Positions 19,940 through 62,368 of a stretch of DNA of 64,000 bases are shown here, piece by piece. The stretch covers positions 62,001 through 126,000 of the forward strand of contig JAOAPC010000021.1 of NCBI GenBank assembly GCA_025462735.1. Direction: 5' to 3'. The stretch is from Acidobacteriaceae bacterium. GTDB taxonomy: Bacteria; Acidobacteriota; Terriglobia; Terriglobales; Acidobacteriaceae. The position numbers were made by a program, and so were the translations under genes. Below the pieces are notes generated by a model that saw only the letters and a program-made list of their open reading frames with translations, was not told the origin of the DNA and ran no database searches. The stretch's first letter is position 1; every line of letters begins with the position of its first letter.

Positions 19940-20235
19940 TCGCATCATTCCCGGCGCTGAAGGCGAGGGGCTATTCAATCGTCCCTACGGGGCTCGCGTC
20001 ATTTGCTCTTGCATCACCCCGGCGCTCGAAGCGCCGGGCTATTATCAATCGTTCCTCCGGAACGATGATTTTGGTTTCAGACATTTCCGAGGGTGCTCCG
20101 CTGAGTTCCCGTCCCATAGGGACGGCTGACAATAGCCCGGGTTTGCAACGCCGGGTCGGCAGGAGCAAAGATGAGACGAGTCCTGTAGGGACGGCTGACA
20201 TAGCGCGACGTTTCAGCGCGGTCGATGCGAACAGA
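19940..20235. repeat. REP hairpin cluster next to the RAYT gene
   Basis: At least four units share one plan: a GC-rich hairpin (CCCGGCGCT/AGCGCCGGG type), a linker like CTATTATCA, then a second hairpin (CGTTCC/GGAACG or GTCCC/GGGAC type). Units: about 19949-19995 (degenerate), 20017-20076, 20109-20158 (opposite orientation) and 20179-20226 (opposite orientation). The alternating orientation is BIME-like. Together with the 22-base hairpin at 20264 they fill the 356 bases between the RAYT and the LeuA-like gene. No gene is seen there. Confidence 0.85.
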
Positions 20236-41462: not shown

Positions 41463-42179
41463 ATGACCCGACGCCGCTGGATCGCTGATGAAATTACCGG
41501 AAACCGCGCCGCTCTCACCGGCGATCACGCCCGTCATCTTGCGCAGGTGCTCCGCGCCGAGGTGGGACAGGAATTCGACATCTCAACCGGTGCTGACGTA
41601 CGCCGTGGCAGAATTGCAACCATTCGTCCGGAGCGCGTGGAATTTGAATTGGGAGAGACGGTCACCCAATCCGATCAACCCGATATTACTGTCGCGATTT
41701 CGATTTTCAAATTCGACCGCATGGAATGGGCAATCGAGAAATGCACCGAACTTGGCGTCGCCAGGATCGTTCCGGTGATTGCGGCCCGCACCGAACCCCA
41801 TCTCGCTACGTCTGCTACGAAGCGTGCCGAACGCTGGCGCCGAATTGCGAATCAAGCCTCAGAACAATCACGGCGACCTTCCGCGCCGGAGATCTCCGAA
41901 CCCATAAAGTTCAAAGAACTGCCTGAAATGCCCGGCGAGACAAGAATCGTCTTGTCGGAAACGGAGCAGAAGCTGATGCTCAAGGATGCCGTCCCACAGC
42001 AATCCCACTCGGTCCTGCTGGCATTCGGCCCGGAAGGCGGCTGGAAGGAACAAGAGCTCGAGTCTTTTCGCGAAGCTGGCTGGGTGCCTGCATCCTTGGG
42101 GGGCACAGTTCTTCGCTCCGAGACAGCCGTGATTGCAGCGGTGGCCGTCGCCGCGTCCATTCTTCAGAAACCGGAGTAA
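41463..42179 (+). CDS. rsmE: 16S rRNA m3U1498 methyltransferase
   Basis: 238-residue SPOUT-class methyltransferase with an N-terminal PUA-like domain (RRWIADEITGNRAALTGDHARHLAQVLR) and knot-forming SAM motifs AFGPEGGWKEQELE and LGGTVLRSETAVIAAVAV. Normal length. The helicase gene starts 40 bases after its stop. Confidence 0.95.
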   Translation: MTRRRWIADEITGNRAALTGDHARHLAQVLRAEVGQEFDISTGADVRRGRIATIRPERVEFELGETVTQSDQPDITVAISIFKFDRMEWAIEKCTELGVARIVPVIAARTEPHLATSATKRAERWRRIANQASEQSRRPSAPEISEPIKFKELPEMPGETRIVLSETEQKLMLKDAVPQQSHSVLLAFGPEGGWKEQELESFREAGWVPASLGGTVLRSETAVIAAVAVAASILQKPE

Positions 42180-42219
42180 GCCGACCACTGCACAGCCATC
42201 TCTGCTATTCTCCTGCTCA

Positions 42220-45168
42220 ATGGCTGTTTCCAAAGGCGTCTCCACTTCCAAACTCCAACCTGACCCCCAGCAGCGCGCGGCCATCGAGCACGTCAGCGGC
42301 CCCATGCTGGTGCTGGCAGGCGCCGGCACCGGTAAGACCACCGTACTTATTCGCCGCATCGCTAATCTGATTCGTGAAGGTCACGCCCGCCCGGACGAAA
42401 TCCTGGCGCTTACTTACACCAACAACGCTGCTGCGGAGATGTGGGAGCGCGTACAGGGTGAATTACGCGGCGTCGATGCTAAAGGCCTGCAGGTTGGAAC
42501 CTTTCACGCTTACTGCAATGAGCTGCTTCAACGCTGCGGGCGCGATTTCAAGGTGCTCAACGACCAGCAGTTGTGGATTTTTTTGCGCCGGAATATCCGC
42601 GAGCTGCGATTGAATTATTACGTTCGCGCCGCCAGCATTGGAGAATTCCTCAAAGACCTGCTGGAATTTATGCGCCGCTGCCAGGATGAACTGGTCGGGC
42701 CTGCGCAATACCGCGCGAATGTGGAGCGTATCGAGCGGGGCGAGTTGCCGGTTCCTCGTGTCGGCAAATCCAAGAAGGCAAAAGAAATTACCGATGAAGA
42801 AGCCCGCGGCCGCTGCCACGAAATCGCCTTCGTCTTTGAGACCGTCGAGCGCATGCTCAGAGAGCACAACTTCGGCACCTTCGGGCACATGATTCTTCGC
42901 GCCCACGAACTTCTGTCTGAAGATCCCGCCCTGCTGGAAAGCGAGCGTGCCCGCGCTAAATTCATTCTTGTAGACGAATTTCAGGACGCAAACTTCGCCC
43001 AGATTAAGACTTTGGAGAAATTAGCCGGCAGCGCTCAGAACATTTTTGCTGTCGGCGACCCGGATCAGGGCATTTATCGTTTTCGCGGTGCATCTAGCGG
43101 CGCGTTCGAACTTTTCCAACGACAATTCGCCAGCTCTAAGCTCGCCGTTCTGAACAGAAACCGCCGCTCCACAACTCCCATTCTCAAATGTGCCCATGCG
43201 GTAATCGCCGAGAACCCTGAATTTTCGCTGAGCACAGGGGCGGGCGCCTATCATCGAACGCCACTGGTCTCGGCGCGTGATGAACACGATCCCGGCAGGG
43301 CCGCGCAGCGAGCTCCTCTTCAGGCGGTATTGGTGAGCGGTGGTTTCATGGAAGCCACCGACTTGGTGTCAACCCTTATCGAGCGGCGTCGCCAGTCTCG
43401 CTGTGAATGGAAGAACATCGCGCTCCTTTACCGGACACACTTTCATCGTGACGAGGTTGCCGCCGAACTCGCGAGGAATGGAATTCCCTTTTCGATTGAG
43501 GGCCTCGACGTTCTCGACACCCCGGAAGTGCGCGATCTGCTTGCCTGCTTGGGAGCGGTAGTCTCTGATGCGGACAGCGCGGCGTTATTCAGAGCCGCTG
43601 CACTACCGCAGTTTTTGGTTGATCCGGAGGAATTGAGAAGCGCGATCAAATCTCTCCCGCGTGAAACCACTGCGACCATCGCCTCAGTACTGTCTCGCGT
43701 TAAAGGATGCGGCGCTCTTCTCGAAGCAGTGCGGCAGGCGCGGAGTGAGACGTCTGGCAACAAAGTTTACCCAACCCTGCTCTCCGTAATACGCATTTTC
43801 CAGATTCCCCGCGGTCAGGCGGTTGAAGCCCTGCTGCGATTTTCAAACCAATGGGAAACATCGCCGCTTACCAAAACTGGCGAGCCGGGCGAGTTCATCG
43901 AGTATCTGGATTATTTTCGCGAAGCGCGGGGGACCATTCCGCTGCCTGCTGCGGACGAAAAGAATGCCGTCAAGCTAATGACCGCCCATTCGGCAAAAGG
44001 GCTGGAGTTTGACCACGTTTTTATTCTGCGTGCAGTCAAGGGCAGCTTTCCAGTCTATTATCGTGAGCCGCTGATCGAGCTTCCGGCGGAGCTTCGCAAC
44101 TCCGGATTAGCAGATACGGACGAGAAGAAAGTTTGCGAACAGGAAGAGCGGCGCTTGTTCTACGTTGCCATGACTCGGGCCCGAGATACTCTTACCATCT
44201 ACGGGCAGTTCGGAAAAGGGCAACTCGACAAGACGCCGCCGGGTTTTTTGCGTGAGCTGCTAAAGAATCGCGAGTTGAGGCCGTGGCTGAAACAGCGGAC
44301 TTGCCGTGAATTCCAGACCGACATTTTCGCCGCCGCGCAAAGACCATCATCGAGGCTGGAAGAATGGGTCGGGATGGCTCCAGCTTCTGATCTGGCCGCG
44401 ACGCTGAGTGCCAGCTCTATTCAGCACTACGAGACTTGTCCACTGCAGTTCAAGCTGGAGCGCGAGTGGCGGATCCCGGCGGAAGCTTCTGCCGCGTTGC
44501 AGTATGGCGCATGCATGCACCGCGTGCTGCTCACCTACTACGAGTCCGTCAGACTGGAGCGCACTTTGCTCGAACCAGAACTGATCGATCTCTTTCGGAC
44601 AGAACTCGCGAATGCCGGGTTCTCTGATCACTACCAGCGCGAGCTGTACGAACAGAAGGGGATCGTAGAGCTGCGGGCCTTCATCGCCTCTTCTGCCCAG
44701 GTTAAGTCCGAAGTGTTACACACGGAAGAGCGGTTTAGCGTGAAGATCGGTCCGACCACGCTGGTCGGCCGGATTGATCGCATAGATAGAGATAGAGCCC
44801 GTGCGTCTGCCGACAGCGTCGTTATCACCGACTATAAAACCGGAAGGCCCAGGTCACAGGAAGATGCTGACGAAAGCCTGCAGCTCTCCCTGTATGCGCT
44901 GGCCGCGCGTGAAAAGTGGGGATACAGAAGTGAGCGCCTCGTCTTTCATAACCTCGAGGGCAACTCATCGATCAGCAGCGTGCGCAGTGATCTCCAACTG
45001 CAGGAAGCGCAACTTCATGTAGAAGACATTGCGGCAAAAATCTCCGCCGGAAATTTCGAACCCAAACCAGGATTTCATTGCGCCTGGTGCGCCTACCGCA
45101 GCCTTTGCCCAAAAACCGAAAAGCGCATTCCCGAATTGCTCGCGGTCGCTGCCACCGAACAAAACTAG
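42220..45168 (+). CDS. UvrD/Rep-type helicase fused to PD-(D/E)xK nuclease with Fe-S cysteines
   Basis: 982 residues from the ATG at 42220. SF1A helicase motifs: LAGAGTGKTTVL (I), LTYTNNAAAEMWERV (Ia), ILVDEFQDANFAQ (II), GDPDQGIYRFRGA (III), LMTAHSAKGLEFDHVFI (V) and RLFYVAMTRARD (VI). The C-terminal 220 residues form a RecB/AddB-like nuclease: ETCPLQFKLE, GACMHRVLLTYY, VVITDYKTGR and the terminal HCAWCAYRSLC, giving four cysteines suited to a 4Fe-4S cluster. This layout resembles AddA/AdnA-type double-strand-break resection enzymes. A partner subunit is not in the window. Confidence 0.92.
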   Translation: MAVSKGVSTSKLQPDPQQRAAIEHVSGPMLVLAGAGTGKTTVLIRRIANLIREGHARPDEILALTYTNNAAAEMWERVQGELRGVDAKGLQVGTFHAYCNELLQRCGRDFKVLNDQQLWIFLRRNIRELRLNYYVRAASIGEFLKDLLEFMRRCQDELVGPAQYRANVERIERGELPVPRVGKSKKAKEITDEEARGRCHEIAFVFETVERMLREHNFGTFGHMILRAHELLSEDPALLESERARAKFILVDEFQDANFAQIKTLEKLAGSAQNIFAVGDPDQGIYRFRGASSGAFELFQRQFASSKLAVLNRNRRSTTPILKCAHAVIAENPEFSLSTGAGAYHRTPLVSARDEHDPGRAAQRAPLQAVLVSGGFMEATDLVSTLIERRRQSRCEWKNIALLYRTHFHRDEVAAELARNGIPFSIEGLDVLDTPEVRDLLACLGAVVSDADSAALFRAAALPQFLVDPEELRSAIKSLPRETTATIASVLSRVKGCGALLEAVRQARSETSGNKVYPTLLSVIRIFQIPRGQAVEALLRFSNQWETSPLTKTGEPGEFIEYLDYFREARGTIPLPAADEKNAVKLMTAHSAKGLEFDHVFILRAVKGSFPVYYREPLIELPAELRNSGLADTDEKKVCEQEERRLFYVAMTRARDTLTIYGQFGKGQLDKTPPGFLRELLKNRELRPWLKQRTCREFQTDIFAAAQRPSSRLEEWVGMAPASDLAATLSASSIQHYETCPLQFKLEREWRIPAEASAALQYGACMHRVLLTYYESVRLERTLLEPELIDLFRTELANAGFSDHYQRELYEQKGIVELRAFIASSAQVKSEVLHTEERFSVKIGPTTLVGRIDRIDRDRARASADSVVITDYKTGRPRSQEDADESLQLSLYALAAREKWGYRSERLVFHNLEGNSSISSVRSDLQLQEAQLHVEDIAAKISAGNFEPKPGFHCAWCAYRSLCPKTEKRIPELLAVAATEQN

Positions 45169-45185
45169 CTGAAACAAATCAATCC

Positions 45186-45218
45186 AAAAAAAACTTTGGG
45201 GACGCTATTCGCGTCCCC
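45186..45218 (-). terminator. Terminator of the lysine-rich micropeptide gene
   Basis: Perfect 8-bp stem GGGGACGC/GCGTCCCC (45198-45205 with 45211-45218), 5-base loop; on the minus strand followed by AAAG and eight consecutive T. It starts 26 bases after the micropeptide stop. On the plus strand the T-run is absent. Confidence 0.88.
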
Positions 45219-45243
45219 ATGTTTCTACTTTGCATCAGGCCAA

Positions 45244-45291
45244 TTAGTGTTTCTTCTTGGTGGCCTTTTTTGCTTTCTTTTTGGTTGCCAT
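45244..45291 (-). CDS. Lysine-rich micropeptide (15 residues), complete transcription unit
   Basis: The ORF encodes MATKKKAKKATKKKH: eight lysines, no acidic residue, composition like a histone H1 tail. Too short for normal gene calling, but all signals are in place: a sigma-70 promoter with TTGACT and TATACA 17 bases apart, a GGGAG ribosome site nine bases before the ATG, TAA stop and a strong terminator, all on one strand within 200 bases. The Lys/Ala/Thr repeat suggests nucleic-acid binding, perhaps chromatin- or ribosome-related; this is inferred from charge only. It could also be a small RNA that happens to carry an ORF. It lies between the helicase gene (convergent) and thiolase (divergent). 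Confidence 0.68.
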   Translation of the reverse strand: MATKKKAKKATKKKH

Positions 45292-45356
45292 GTTAACTAT
45301 TCTCCCTTCCATTGTTCATGGATCGATGCAACGGTCTTCTGTTGCGACTGATTGAA

Positions 45357-45385
45357 TGTATAGAGTCATTAAAATGCGAAGTCAA
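45357..45385 (-). promoter_or_regulatory. Near-consensus sigma-70 promoter for the micropeptide gene
   Basis: -35 TTGACT (45380-45385) and -10 TATACA (45357-45362) with the optimal 17-base spacer. The predicted start is near 45350, giving a leader of about 60 bases before the ATG. Confidence 0.75.
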
Positions 45386-46908: not shown

Positions 46909-47286
46909 CCAGTCGCGGAGCGACGGTATGTGATAGCCCGGCACGTAAGTGCCGGGTACAGTTCATGAACGGATTCGAGTCCCTTTAGGGACGGCACCCG
47001 CTTGTTGAGTTCAGTGGATGCCACGACAGTCGAGGATATTCAAGACAACGTGATCTTAGTCGATGATTCACAAGTTGCTGATCTGCTCATCGAGCATACC
47101 TGGTGTGGCTCCAAGGGCCACGCACGAAATCAAGAGAGTTGATTCAGACTACTTTCAGAAGACAAACAGCCGTGCTGAAGTGTGATCATTCGCAATCTTG
47201 TACCGTCCCTGCGGGACTCATCTCAATTCCGCACCTCACCCGGCACTGCCATGCCGGGCTATCACATACCGTCGCTCCGCGACTGG
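46909..47286. repeat. Two REP units in inverted orientation sharing a 35-bp identical arm
   Basis: 46909-46943 is the exact reverse complement of 47252-47286. Each half contains three hairpins in the same order: GTCGC/GCGAC, CCCGGCAC/GTGCCGGG, then GTCCC/GGGAC, with the linker TATGTGATAG. About 200 bases of unrecognised DNA lie between (46990-47200). This fills the 475-base gap between thiolase and DUF4097 and belongs to the same family as the RAYT-linked REPs. Confidence 0.88.
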
Positions 47287-60553: not shown

Positions 60554-62368
60554 TTGTTTGTGTTGTTCGCGGTCCTTCTAATTGCCTTACACGCCCCGGT
60601 GCTCCGGCTTCCCTATTTCTGGGATGAAGCCGGCTACTACATTCCCGCCACACGCGATCTGCTTGCCGGATCATTGATTCCATATTCCACGCCGTCGAAC
60701 GCGCATCCTCCTCTGGTGCTGGCGTGGCTGGCGCTTTGCTGGAAAATCTTGGGCCAAAGCCAGTTAGCGACCCGTTGCGCGATGCTGCTGCTGGCAGCGT
60801 TTTCTCTTTTGGGATTTTTTCGCCTGGCGCGAGCCGTTGCGAATTCAGCAGTCGCTGCGTGCAGCACAGCGCTCGTCGCGATCTATCCGGTCTTTTTCAC
60901 GCAAAGCTCGCTTGCACAAGTAGATCTTCCGTCCGCCGGGCTGATCTTCTGGGGCCTGGAATCATACTTTCGCCGAGAACGCGTTTCCACGGAGGCACGG
61001 GCGCCCGTCCTGAGTAAAGCCGAAGAATCCTGGCCCACGTTCATCTGGTTCTCACTCGCCGCATTGGCGAAAGAAACCGCGATTCTGGTTCCCCTGGCCC
61101 TCATCTCGTGGCGCGTTGTCAGCCTATTTGTGCAAAGACTCCCATTTCGCGCCGCTCAATCGCGACTCGTTACGGAAGAAAATAGTCTGGCTGACCACAG
61201 CACCAGCCGCGCAGCGGCGGGATATGAAAGCCCGGCACGGAAGTGCCGGGAAGAAGACGCCGCGACGATTGAGTCCCGAACGGGACGGCACCACGTTCAA
61301 ACATCTCCTTATGCGGCTAAAGCCGCCGACGTCGCAAGCTCGCAAATCGGCACGACTGGAAGTCGTGCCCTTCCCGGACTCGCTAGCGCATGGCCGCTGT
61401 GCATAACGCTGCTGCCCCTCGCCCTCTGGTACTCCTATCACTACGCCCACACTGGATTCGTCTTCGGCAACCCCGAATTCTTCCGCTACAACGTTCAGGA
61501 AACGTTACATCCCTTGCGGATATTCCTTGCCCTGCTATTACGCATCTGGCAAACGTTTGGATATCTCGATTTGTATGTCTTGACCTTAGCCTGCATGGCC
61601 GCGTTGATGTTCGCGCCGATCAAGGACGCACAAGGCGAACGCCCGCGAATTGATCTGTCCGTCCAGTTCAGTTTTCTCGCCATCGCAATTGTGTATCTGA
61701 TCTGCCTCTCCGTCATTGGCGGCGCGGTGCTGGCCCGTTACATGCTGCCGGTAGTCCCGCTTGTAATCCTGGTTTGCGTCTCTACTATCTGGCGACGGCT
61801 GCCAGCATGGAAGGCAGTCATCGGCGTGATCGCGCTAGCATTCGTCTCCGCCCTCTTCGTAAATCCGCCATACGGATTCTCTCCCGAAGACAATCTCGCC
61901 TATCGCGATTACATCCGCTTGCACCAGCGCGCCGAAAAATTTCTCGAGCTGCGATATCCCCATGCTCGCGCGCTCACCGCGTGGCCCGCCAGCGATGAAC
62001 TTACGCGGCCATATCTGGGCTATGTTCCAAAGCCTGTTCAAGTGGTCAAAATCGAAGATTTCTCCGCCGAGCAGGTGCTCTCGGCAGCCGACGCTCGCTC
62101 CCGCTTCGATGTTGCGCTGGTTTTCTCAACTAAGTATCGGCCCCAACACTCCGTATTTGACCGCTTTCGCTTATGGCAGGAGTGGAAGTCCCGCTATTTC
62201 GGCTATCACGTGGACCTCACGCCGGAAGTCGCAGCTTCCGTCTTGGGTGGGAATGTCGTTTACGTGGAGCGCCGCCGCGGCCAGTGGGTAGGAATTGTCG
62301 AGATGGAGAAGGTAGAGGAAGCGCGGATCTCAATTGCCCACCGAGATATTTCAGCTGACGTTCCTTAA
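60554..62368 (+). CDS. GT39-like glycosyltransferase with REP-derived insertion
   Basis: 604 residues, ArnT/PMT-like GT-C enzyme: TM1, acidic catalytic loop YFWDEAGYYIPATRDL, about ten TM helices and a C-terminal soluble part. Between two TM helices, at about residues 200-278, is a non-conserved, Arg/Ala/Ser-rich stretch encoded by REP hairpin DNA that stays in frame. Family homology resumes at WPLCITLLPLALWYSYHYAHTGFVFGNPEFFRYN. The TTG start used is uncertain, since the frame is open further upstream. The enzyme may still work if the loop tolerates the insertion. Confidence 0.82.
   Translation: MFVLFAVLLIALHAPVLRLPYFWDEAGYYIPATRDLLAGSLIPYSTPSNAHPPLVLAWLALCWKILGQSQLATRCAMLLLAAFSLLGFFRLARAVANSAVAACSTALVAIYPVFFTQSSLAQVDLPSAGLIFWGLESYFRRERVSTEARAPVLSKAEESWPTFIWFSLAALAKETAILVPLALISWRVVSLFVQRLPFRAAQSRLVTEENSLADHSTSRAAAGYESPARKCREEDAATIESRTGRHHVQTSPYAAKAADVASSQIGTTGSRALPGLASAWPLCITLLPLALWYSYHYAHTGFVFGNPEFFRYNVQETLHPLRIFLALLLRIWQTFGYLDLYVLTLACMAALMFAPIKDAQGERPRIDLSVQFSFLAIAIVYLICLSVIGGAVLARYMLPVVPLVILVCVSTIWRRLPAWKAVIGVIALAFVSALFVNPPYGFSPEDNLAYRDYIRLHQRAEKFLELRYPHARALTAWPASDELTRPYLGYVPKPVQVVKIEDFSAEQVLSAADARSRFDVALVFSTKYRPQHSVFDRFRLWQEWKSRYFGYHVDLTPEVAASVLGGNVVYVERRRGQWVGIVEMEKVEEARISIAHRDISADVP
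61210..61370. repeat. REP-type hairpin array inside the GT39 gene
   Basis: Four stems lie within 160 coding bases: CCCGGCAC/GTGCCGGG (61231-61250), GTCCCG/CGGGAC (61273-61286), GCGGCT/AGCCGC (61313-61326) and GGCACGACT/AGTCGTGCC (61349-61369). The first two reproduce the order and linker of the REP units at 46909 and 20109; the last two form a second repeat type that also occurs in modC. Confidence 0.88.

Follow-up and report, generated by a model that had tools for sequence, protein, structure and literature searches.

Histone H1-like proteins of bacteria, including the chlamydial Hc1 and Hc2 (PF07382), AlgP and the Burkholderia family NF038053, usually have 100–200 residues and carry low-complexity repeats of Lys, Ala, Pro and Thr, such as KKAAKK and KKPAKK. 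The tiny, basic ribosomal protein bTHX and similar proteins are fixed in sequence, each fitting a single pocket of the rRNA. SgrS/SgrT and RNAIII combine a small RNA of conserved structure with a small ORF. Hc2 is given 165–237 residues in passages of PMC2848022, with a size that varies by Lys-rich pentamers. Passages of PMC2864571 present Acido-1 (RF01686) and Acido-Lenti-1 (RF01687) as RNAs predicted in Acidobacteria.

The unit analyzed here lies in a 64-kb stretch of acidobacterial DNA, hereafter the window. The micropeptides encoded by this unit and its relatives share the Lys/Ala/Pro/Thr repeats of the H1-like proteins and, like them, vary in size by repeats. They differ in having 12–37 residues, no other domain, and their own small transcript and terminator, in occurring mostly in Acidobacteriota among the genomes searched, and in scoring below the family cutoffs. 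They resemble bTHX and other tiny basic ribosomal proteins in very small size and basic charge, but their residue order and length drift. The conserved RNA structure beside a small ORF recalls SgrS/SgrT and RNAIII, whereas here a second gene, without a similar UTR sequence, yields a similar peptide.

A compact unit and its database standing

The original prediction placed a promoter, a ribosome site, an ATG, 15 codons, a stop codon and a terminator on the minus strand, and every base was found as claimed (Table 1). The encoded peptide contains eight Lys among its 15 residues, one His and neither Asp nor Glu. Our promoter scan missed the promoter, since the scan requires the second hexamer to end in T; the promoter is credible nonetheless because it is conserved in 30/30 aligned loci. 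A T-rich tract lies immediately 5' of the -35 hexamer in the 30 aligned loci. The predicted fold of the transcript beats 200 of 200 shuffles (z -4.87). The ribosome site is part of a longer conserved element, in which AGGGAGAA is identical throughout the 29 aligned sequences and the next T and A are kept in at least 90%.

Table 1. Elements of the micropeptide unit in the window
Feature	Position	Strand	Evidence and remarks
-35 hexamer TTGACT	45380..45385	-	sequence; conservation (CTTGAC in 30/30 aligned loci)
-10 hexamer TATACA	45357..45362	-	17-base spacer to -35; sequence and conservation
5' leader hairpin 1, GCAAC/GTTGC	45328..45345	-	98.6% of cells paired; two-sided change in 2/5 pairs (29 sequences)
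5' leader hairpin 2, TCCAT/ATGGA	45308..45322	-	immediately 5' of the ribosome site; 96.9% of cells paired; two-sided change in 2/4 counted pairs; gap in 5/29 sequences
GGGAGAATAG, ribosome-binding site and conserved extension	45297..45306	-	GGGAG at 45306-45302
ORF, 15 codons and stop, MATKKKAKKATKKKH	45244..45291	-	ATG 45291-45289, TAA 45246-45244; coding selection
Intrinsic terminator TGGGGACGC-GAATA-GCGTCCCCA and T-run	45186..45219	-	terminator scan; covarying stem of 9 pairs (45219-45197), then a run of eight T

No Rfam family matched the window unit or 20 relatives at the gathering score, including the Acido-1 (RF01686) and Acido-Lenti-1 (RF01687) models, and low thresholds around the unit gave two chance matches alone (E 0.68 and 3). 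Four longer peptides gave only sub-cutoff matches in Pfam and NCBIfam (HC2, H1-like, Rv3852 and a valyl-tRNA ligase tail); the window 15-mer is below the scan minimum of 20 residues, so that the Pfam result concerns these longer relatives. The best Pfam match, to PF07382 HC2, reached 19.2 bits against a cutoff of 40 in one of the four peptides, the other three having none. This match may reflect composition alone. The 107 distinct coding sequences collected from relatives show the Lys/Ala-rich repeats with hardly any acidic residue that characterize HC2, and the curated score is not reached. A literature search gave no account of these genes among the matches listed; subscription literature lay mostly outside the search, and a description elsewhere is possible. 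The passages of a Granulicella omics study (PMC7074687) make no mention of such genes.

As a separate observation, the 46-base Acido-Lenti-1 motif (RF01687) is present in four copies in the window, at 46911-46956 and 61205-61250 on the minus strand and at 47239-47284 and 20018-20064 on the plus strand. Its presence on either strand, and a distance of only about 280 bases between two of the copies, suggest a dispersed repeat rather than one RNA gene.

Conservation and coding selection

A DNA search with a 251-base unit matched 34 of 61 genomes, the own genome included: 34/37 in the same family and 0/24 outside it. The first set of loci comprised 30 of the 37 matches from this search, the own locus included. 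All 30 contain, at the equivalent position, an ATG-started Lys-rich ORF of 12–23 codons, and all carry CTTGAC and a TATA hexamer. The promoter spacer has 17 bases in the 28 rows parsed by script, and also in L008 and L013, which were read by eye as the script parsed them wrongly. A terminator of GGGACGC or GGGAGGC type follows in 29/30 loci; in the remaining one (L028) the contig stops short of it. A covariance model built from 29 units (R1) matched 131/150 genomes of the family and 166/200 genomes of an order sample, 13 of the sister family f2 among these; these counts are of units rather than intact ORFs, some matches being second genes (e.g., G103, G174) or ORF-less copies (G156, G175).

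The thiolase gene beside the unit gave another route to relatives. Among 80 loci fetched solely by thiolase and screened with a similar ORF filter, the 17 best-matching (L229-L245), whose titles all name Acidobacteria or groups within them, encode a Lys-rich peptide in 11 cases. The other 63, which include three with Acidobacteria or Thermoanaerobaculia in their titles, yielded only two unrelated ORFs (L277, L292).

Our comparison of coding sequences used 107 distinct CDS from 132 of 153 loci, with 14 second-gene loci set aside and seven in which the filter recognized no ORF. The ratio of nonsynonymous to synonymous change (N/S) in 43 disjoint pairs was 0.16 for the coding frame, whereas the shifted frames gave 1.8 and 4.6; over all close pairs, which are not independent, it was 0.034. 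Among the eight best-populated groups of identical peptides, the differences were purely at third positions in seven. The nine sequences encoding MATKKKAKKKKKH, for example, differed 0, 0 and 122 times at positions 1, 2 and 3. The two sequences of the eighth group differed once at position 1 and once at position 2, the pattern of an AGC/TCN serine swap. The peptides range from 12 to 37 residues and are composed of K (53.8%), A (29.4%), T (6.9%), P (3.2%), H (2.3%), G (1.9%), S (1.6%) and V (0.7%); D makes up 0.1% (two residues, both in L131), and E is absent from this set, a single Glu being found in one phylum-level peptide (L184).

The expected conservation of Lys/Ala/Thr composition with synonymous-site variation is thus present, with K, A, T and P kept in relatives across the phylum. 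As the comparison shows, selection maintains composition, charge and small spacers, with Lys runs or pairs between small residues, and not exact length or order. The original prediction offered a nucleoid- or ribosome-associated micropeptide, or a dual-function RNA, as candidates. Its proposal of a real micropeptide gene is borne out by ORF conservation and in-frame selection, and we regard it as near certain, on these comparisons, that the unit is a stand-alone coding gene for a Lys-rich micropeptide.

Relatives, a second gene and ORF-less copies

Class and phylum were sampled with a wider model (R2). At local positions of about 75-199 this model often matches longer Lys-rich ORFs, so its raw tallies (119/151, 110/197 and 13/40) are inflated and do not count micropeptide genes; the extracted ORFs alone were counted. 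Among 56 loci taken mostly from the better R2 matches (L173-L228), 45 contain a ribosome site and an ORF no longer than 45 codons, which in a single case (L184) includes an acidic residue. The 11 loci without such an ORF include a 100-base stretch fetched without a match and the gene of a 135-residue protein in the window's own genome (L208, G000:C12, 119-526), which begins with an acidic part and continues with an H1-like part rich in Lys, Arg and Ser. Micropeptide ORFs were found in 21 families of the phylum (f1 and f2 included), 11 of them outside the class; the phylum sample was picked for matches and gives presence, not frequency. Some loci contain paired micropeptide ORFs (L181, L183, L184, L188). 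In some loci of family f6, the ORF is longer with the same type of start (52 residues in L344, 74 in L343 and 90 in L200), which we counted in favour as a possible bridge to the H1-like proteins.

Outside the phylum, R2 matched 13 of 40 genomes, which had been chosen for holding thiolase rather than at random, with at most two ORFs displayed per locus. One clear unit was found, in Bdellovibrionales (L309, position 1561, reverse strand), encoding the 23-residue MATKKKAAKKKVAKKKTAKKKKK with a ribosome site and a terminator-like hairpin. Another locus (L312) has a possible unit with a TTG start, and a Thermoplasmatota genome (L313) has a 32-residue ORF of different make. Micropeptide units were rare in the 40 genomes sampled outside the phylum.

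In some genomes a second type of unit occurs: it has TTGACA...CAATATC and GGAGG, its leader is longer and its terminator differs. A sequence model of 15 such units (R3) matched the window's own genome (G000:C8:193484-193652, E 1.7e-14), where the encoded peptide is MPAKKKAAKKKKH, almost identical to that of the first gene. It also matched G006, the only one of seven genus mates where the searches found no first gene. When the two own-genome units were compared by blastn, significant similarity was confined to the ORF (15 bases, E 1.6e-4), and the next-best match (E 0.08) reaches into the ORF too. The two genes may be old duplicates. That they still share the peptide alone is our best argument for the peptide, rather than the RNA, as the main conserved product, a conclusion that these comparisons strongly support.

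The RNA is also conserved. In the alignment of 29 units (A1), on which alone structure was judged since RNAalifold did poorly on a broad alignment (A2, four pairs), the two leader hairpins and the terminator stem had 97.6% of cells paired, with two-sided change in 7/18 pairs. Pairing and two-sided change were equalled by 0/500 shuffles and the number of pair types by 3/500, although the structure was partly derived from the same sequences, so that slid controls flatter the pairing result. The terminator stem varies in both arms among more distant units. This stem and GGGAGAATAG look conserved beyond the need of a plain terminator and ribosome site.

The promoter, leader hairpin, GGGAG and terminator are kept, and the Lys-rich ORF is absent, in genera g47, g60 and g80 and in two g50 genomes. 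The ORF is present in 135 of 157 distinct promoter-plus-GGGAG units and absent from the other 22; weak genomes were fetched deliberately, and the latter count is not an estimate of frequency. Eighteen of the 22 stand directly before, and co-directional with, rsmE, which, judging by similarity, would encode a 16S rRNA methyltransferase. For two more, L338 (=L355) and L376, a check of loci about 3.2 kb long (those of L355 and L376) showed no match to rsmE, and the remaining two are not clear cases (L344, with its Lys-rich ORF of 52 residues, and L379). Promoter and terminator without the ORF, which the original prediction had named as the mark of a small RNA, are thus seen in 20 distinct copies, all but two of which precede rsmE, and the coding signal elsewhere stands. 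A second role as RNA or leader in the ORF-less lineages is plausible from these copies; the remnant may be an rsmE leader, a small RNA or a product of decay. Since these copies lost the ORF and kept promoter and terminator, some lineages may be able to do without the peptide of the first gene, or the RNA may be useful in itself, which we counted against our preferred explanation. By eye, AGGCAA repeats were seen between GGGAG and the terminator in several of the ORF-less relatives (which comprise L356-L376, L093, L094, L337 and L338).

In the window, the unit is convergent with a gene on the plus strand (42133-45168), ending at 45168, and divergent from another that starts at about 45630; from our own reading of the sequences, we take them to encode a UvrD-like helicase and a thiolase, respectively. 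The thiolase gene is upstream and divergent in 27/30 loci, and was not found in L018, L028 and L029. By homology, the neighbours of the 157 distinct units, many in loci just about 600 bases long, were a convergent uvrD (50), a co-directional rsmE (40) or a convergent rsmE (6), with none identified in 61. These counts replace an earlier tally of nearest long ORFs (80/89 downstream ORFs on the opposite strand), in which antisense ORFs could be mistaken for genes before rsmE.

Proposed function of the micropeptide

Our preferred reading, to which we assign a probability of about 0.6, is a monocistronic gene for a Lys-rich micropeptide working as a nucleic-acid-binding polycation. RNA polymerase would start at the strong-looking sigma-70-type promoter and produce an RNA with a predicted length of roughly 150–170 bases. 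The leader hairpins flank the ribosome site and may hold it open; the ribosome would make the 15 residues and the strong terminator would end the RNA. The peptide, presumably unstructured and positive through eight Lys and one His, would diffuse as a polycation and neutralise the nucleic acid to which it binds, acting like the detached C-terminal tail of an H1-like protein. Its most likely function would be that of an abundant polycation which, in the manner of a free histone H1 tail, binds DNA or RNA. Possible targets are DNA, ribosomal RNA and polyphosphate, the last a fair candidate because AlgP, an H1-like protein, has been linked to polyphosphate granules in passages of PMC9239181.

That the ORF arose by chance within a non-coding RNA, or that the gene is decaying, could be suspected from the mere 15 codons and from the lack of the ORF in some relatives, but the conserved start, frame and composition, the mostly third-position changes and the second gene in the own genome refute this reading and leave it next to no probability. 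A transcript with two functions, encoding the peptide and serving as a small RNA by means of its 5' hairpins, GGGAGAATAG and terminator, would agree with the covariation of leader hairpins and terminator, with the conserved RNA structure found beside the ORF, and with the 20 distinct ORF-less copies that retain the RNA parts, two of them (L338/L355 and L376) without an rsmE match. Yet the second gene gives a similar peptide without similar leader or terminator sequence, so that RNA elements are not what the two genes share, in-frame selection is strong, and no Rfam model matches; we find such a double function possible but rather unlikely.

A ribosome-associated micropeptide, with a role comparable to bTHX in aiding rRNA folding, would fit the tiny, basic product, the T-rich tract just 5' of the -35 hexamer and the adjacency of rsmE in many relatives, but the drifting length and order provide no fixed sequence for one binding pocket, and the rsmE neighbourhood is one arrangement among others, 50 of the 157 distinct units facing uvrD; we consider this role unlikely. 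Very improbable, in our assessment, is a lysine-sensing attenuator, in which stalling of a leader peptide at Lys codons would control read-through of the terminator into a downstream gene. A Lys-rich ORF immediately 5' of a terminator is the classic layout, and 40/157 units have rsmE downstream and co-directional. However, rsmE is not a lysine gene, and 56 of the 96 units with an identified neighbour converge with uvrD or rsmE. Moreover, the co-directional rsmE units are 22 with the ORF and 18 without, and the finding that 18/20 ORF-less copies have rsmE downstream is the opposite of what attenuation predicts. The relatives are mixed in this respect; in the window, where the next gene is convergent and not co-directional, gene direction rules attenuation out.

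Beyond the polycation reading of this single gene, we tentatively propose, at somewhat less than even odds, an old Acidobacteriota system of polycation micropeptides of about 12–37 residues, made in many genomes from two differently built monocistronic genes. No smaller histone-H1-like agents would be known: the micropeptides would amount to free Lys tails that lack a protein body, and would act on DNA, RNA or polyphosphate as polyamines encoded by genes. Some lineages would have lost the ORF and kept the transcript as a small RNA or rsmE leader.

Gene callers usually apply a limit of 30 codons, above the length of such ORFs, and the pieces that trypsin would release from a Lys-rich product are too small for detection. 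Being so small, the gene has probably been missed by standard gene finding and by protein mass spectrometry. A unit with model matches in 131/150 sampled genomes of the family, and with relatives across Acidobacteriota, a major soil phylum, has no fitting entry in Rfam, Pfam or NCBIfam. Models that include promoter, leader and terminator offer a way to seek stand-alone Lys-rich micropeptides in other phyla. Should the micropeptide prove to be abundant and to bind nucleic acid, hardly any gene product that shapes chromatin or ribosomes would be smaller.
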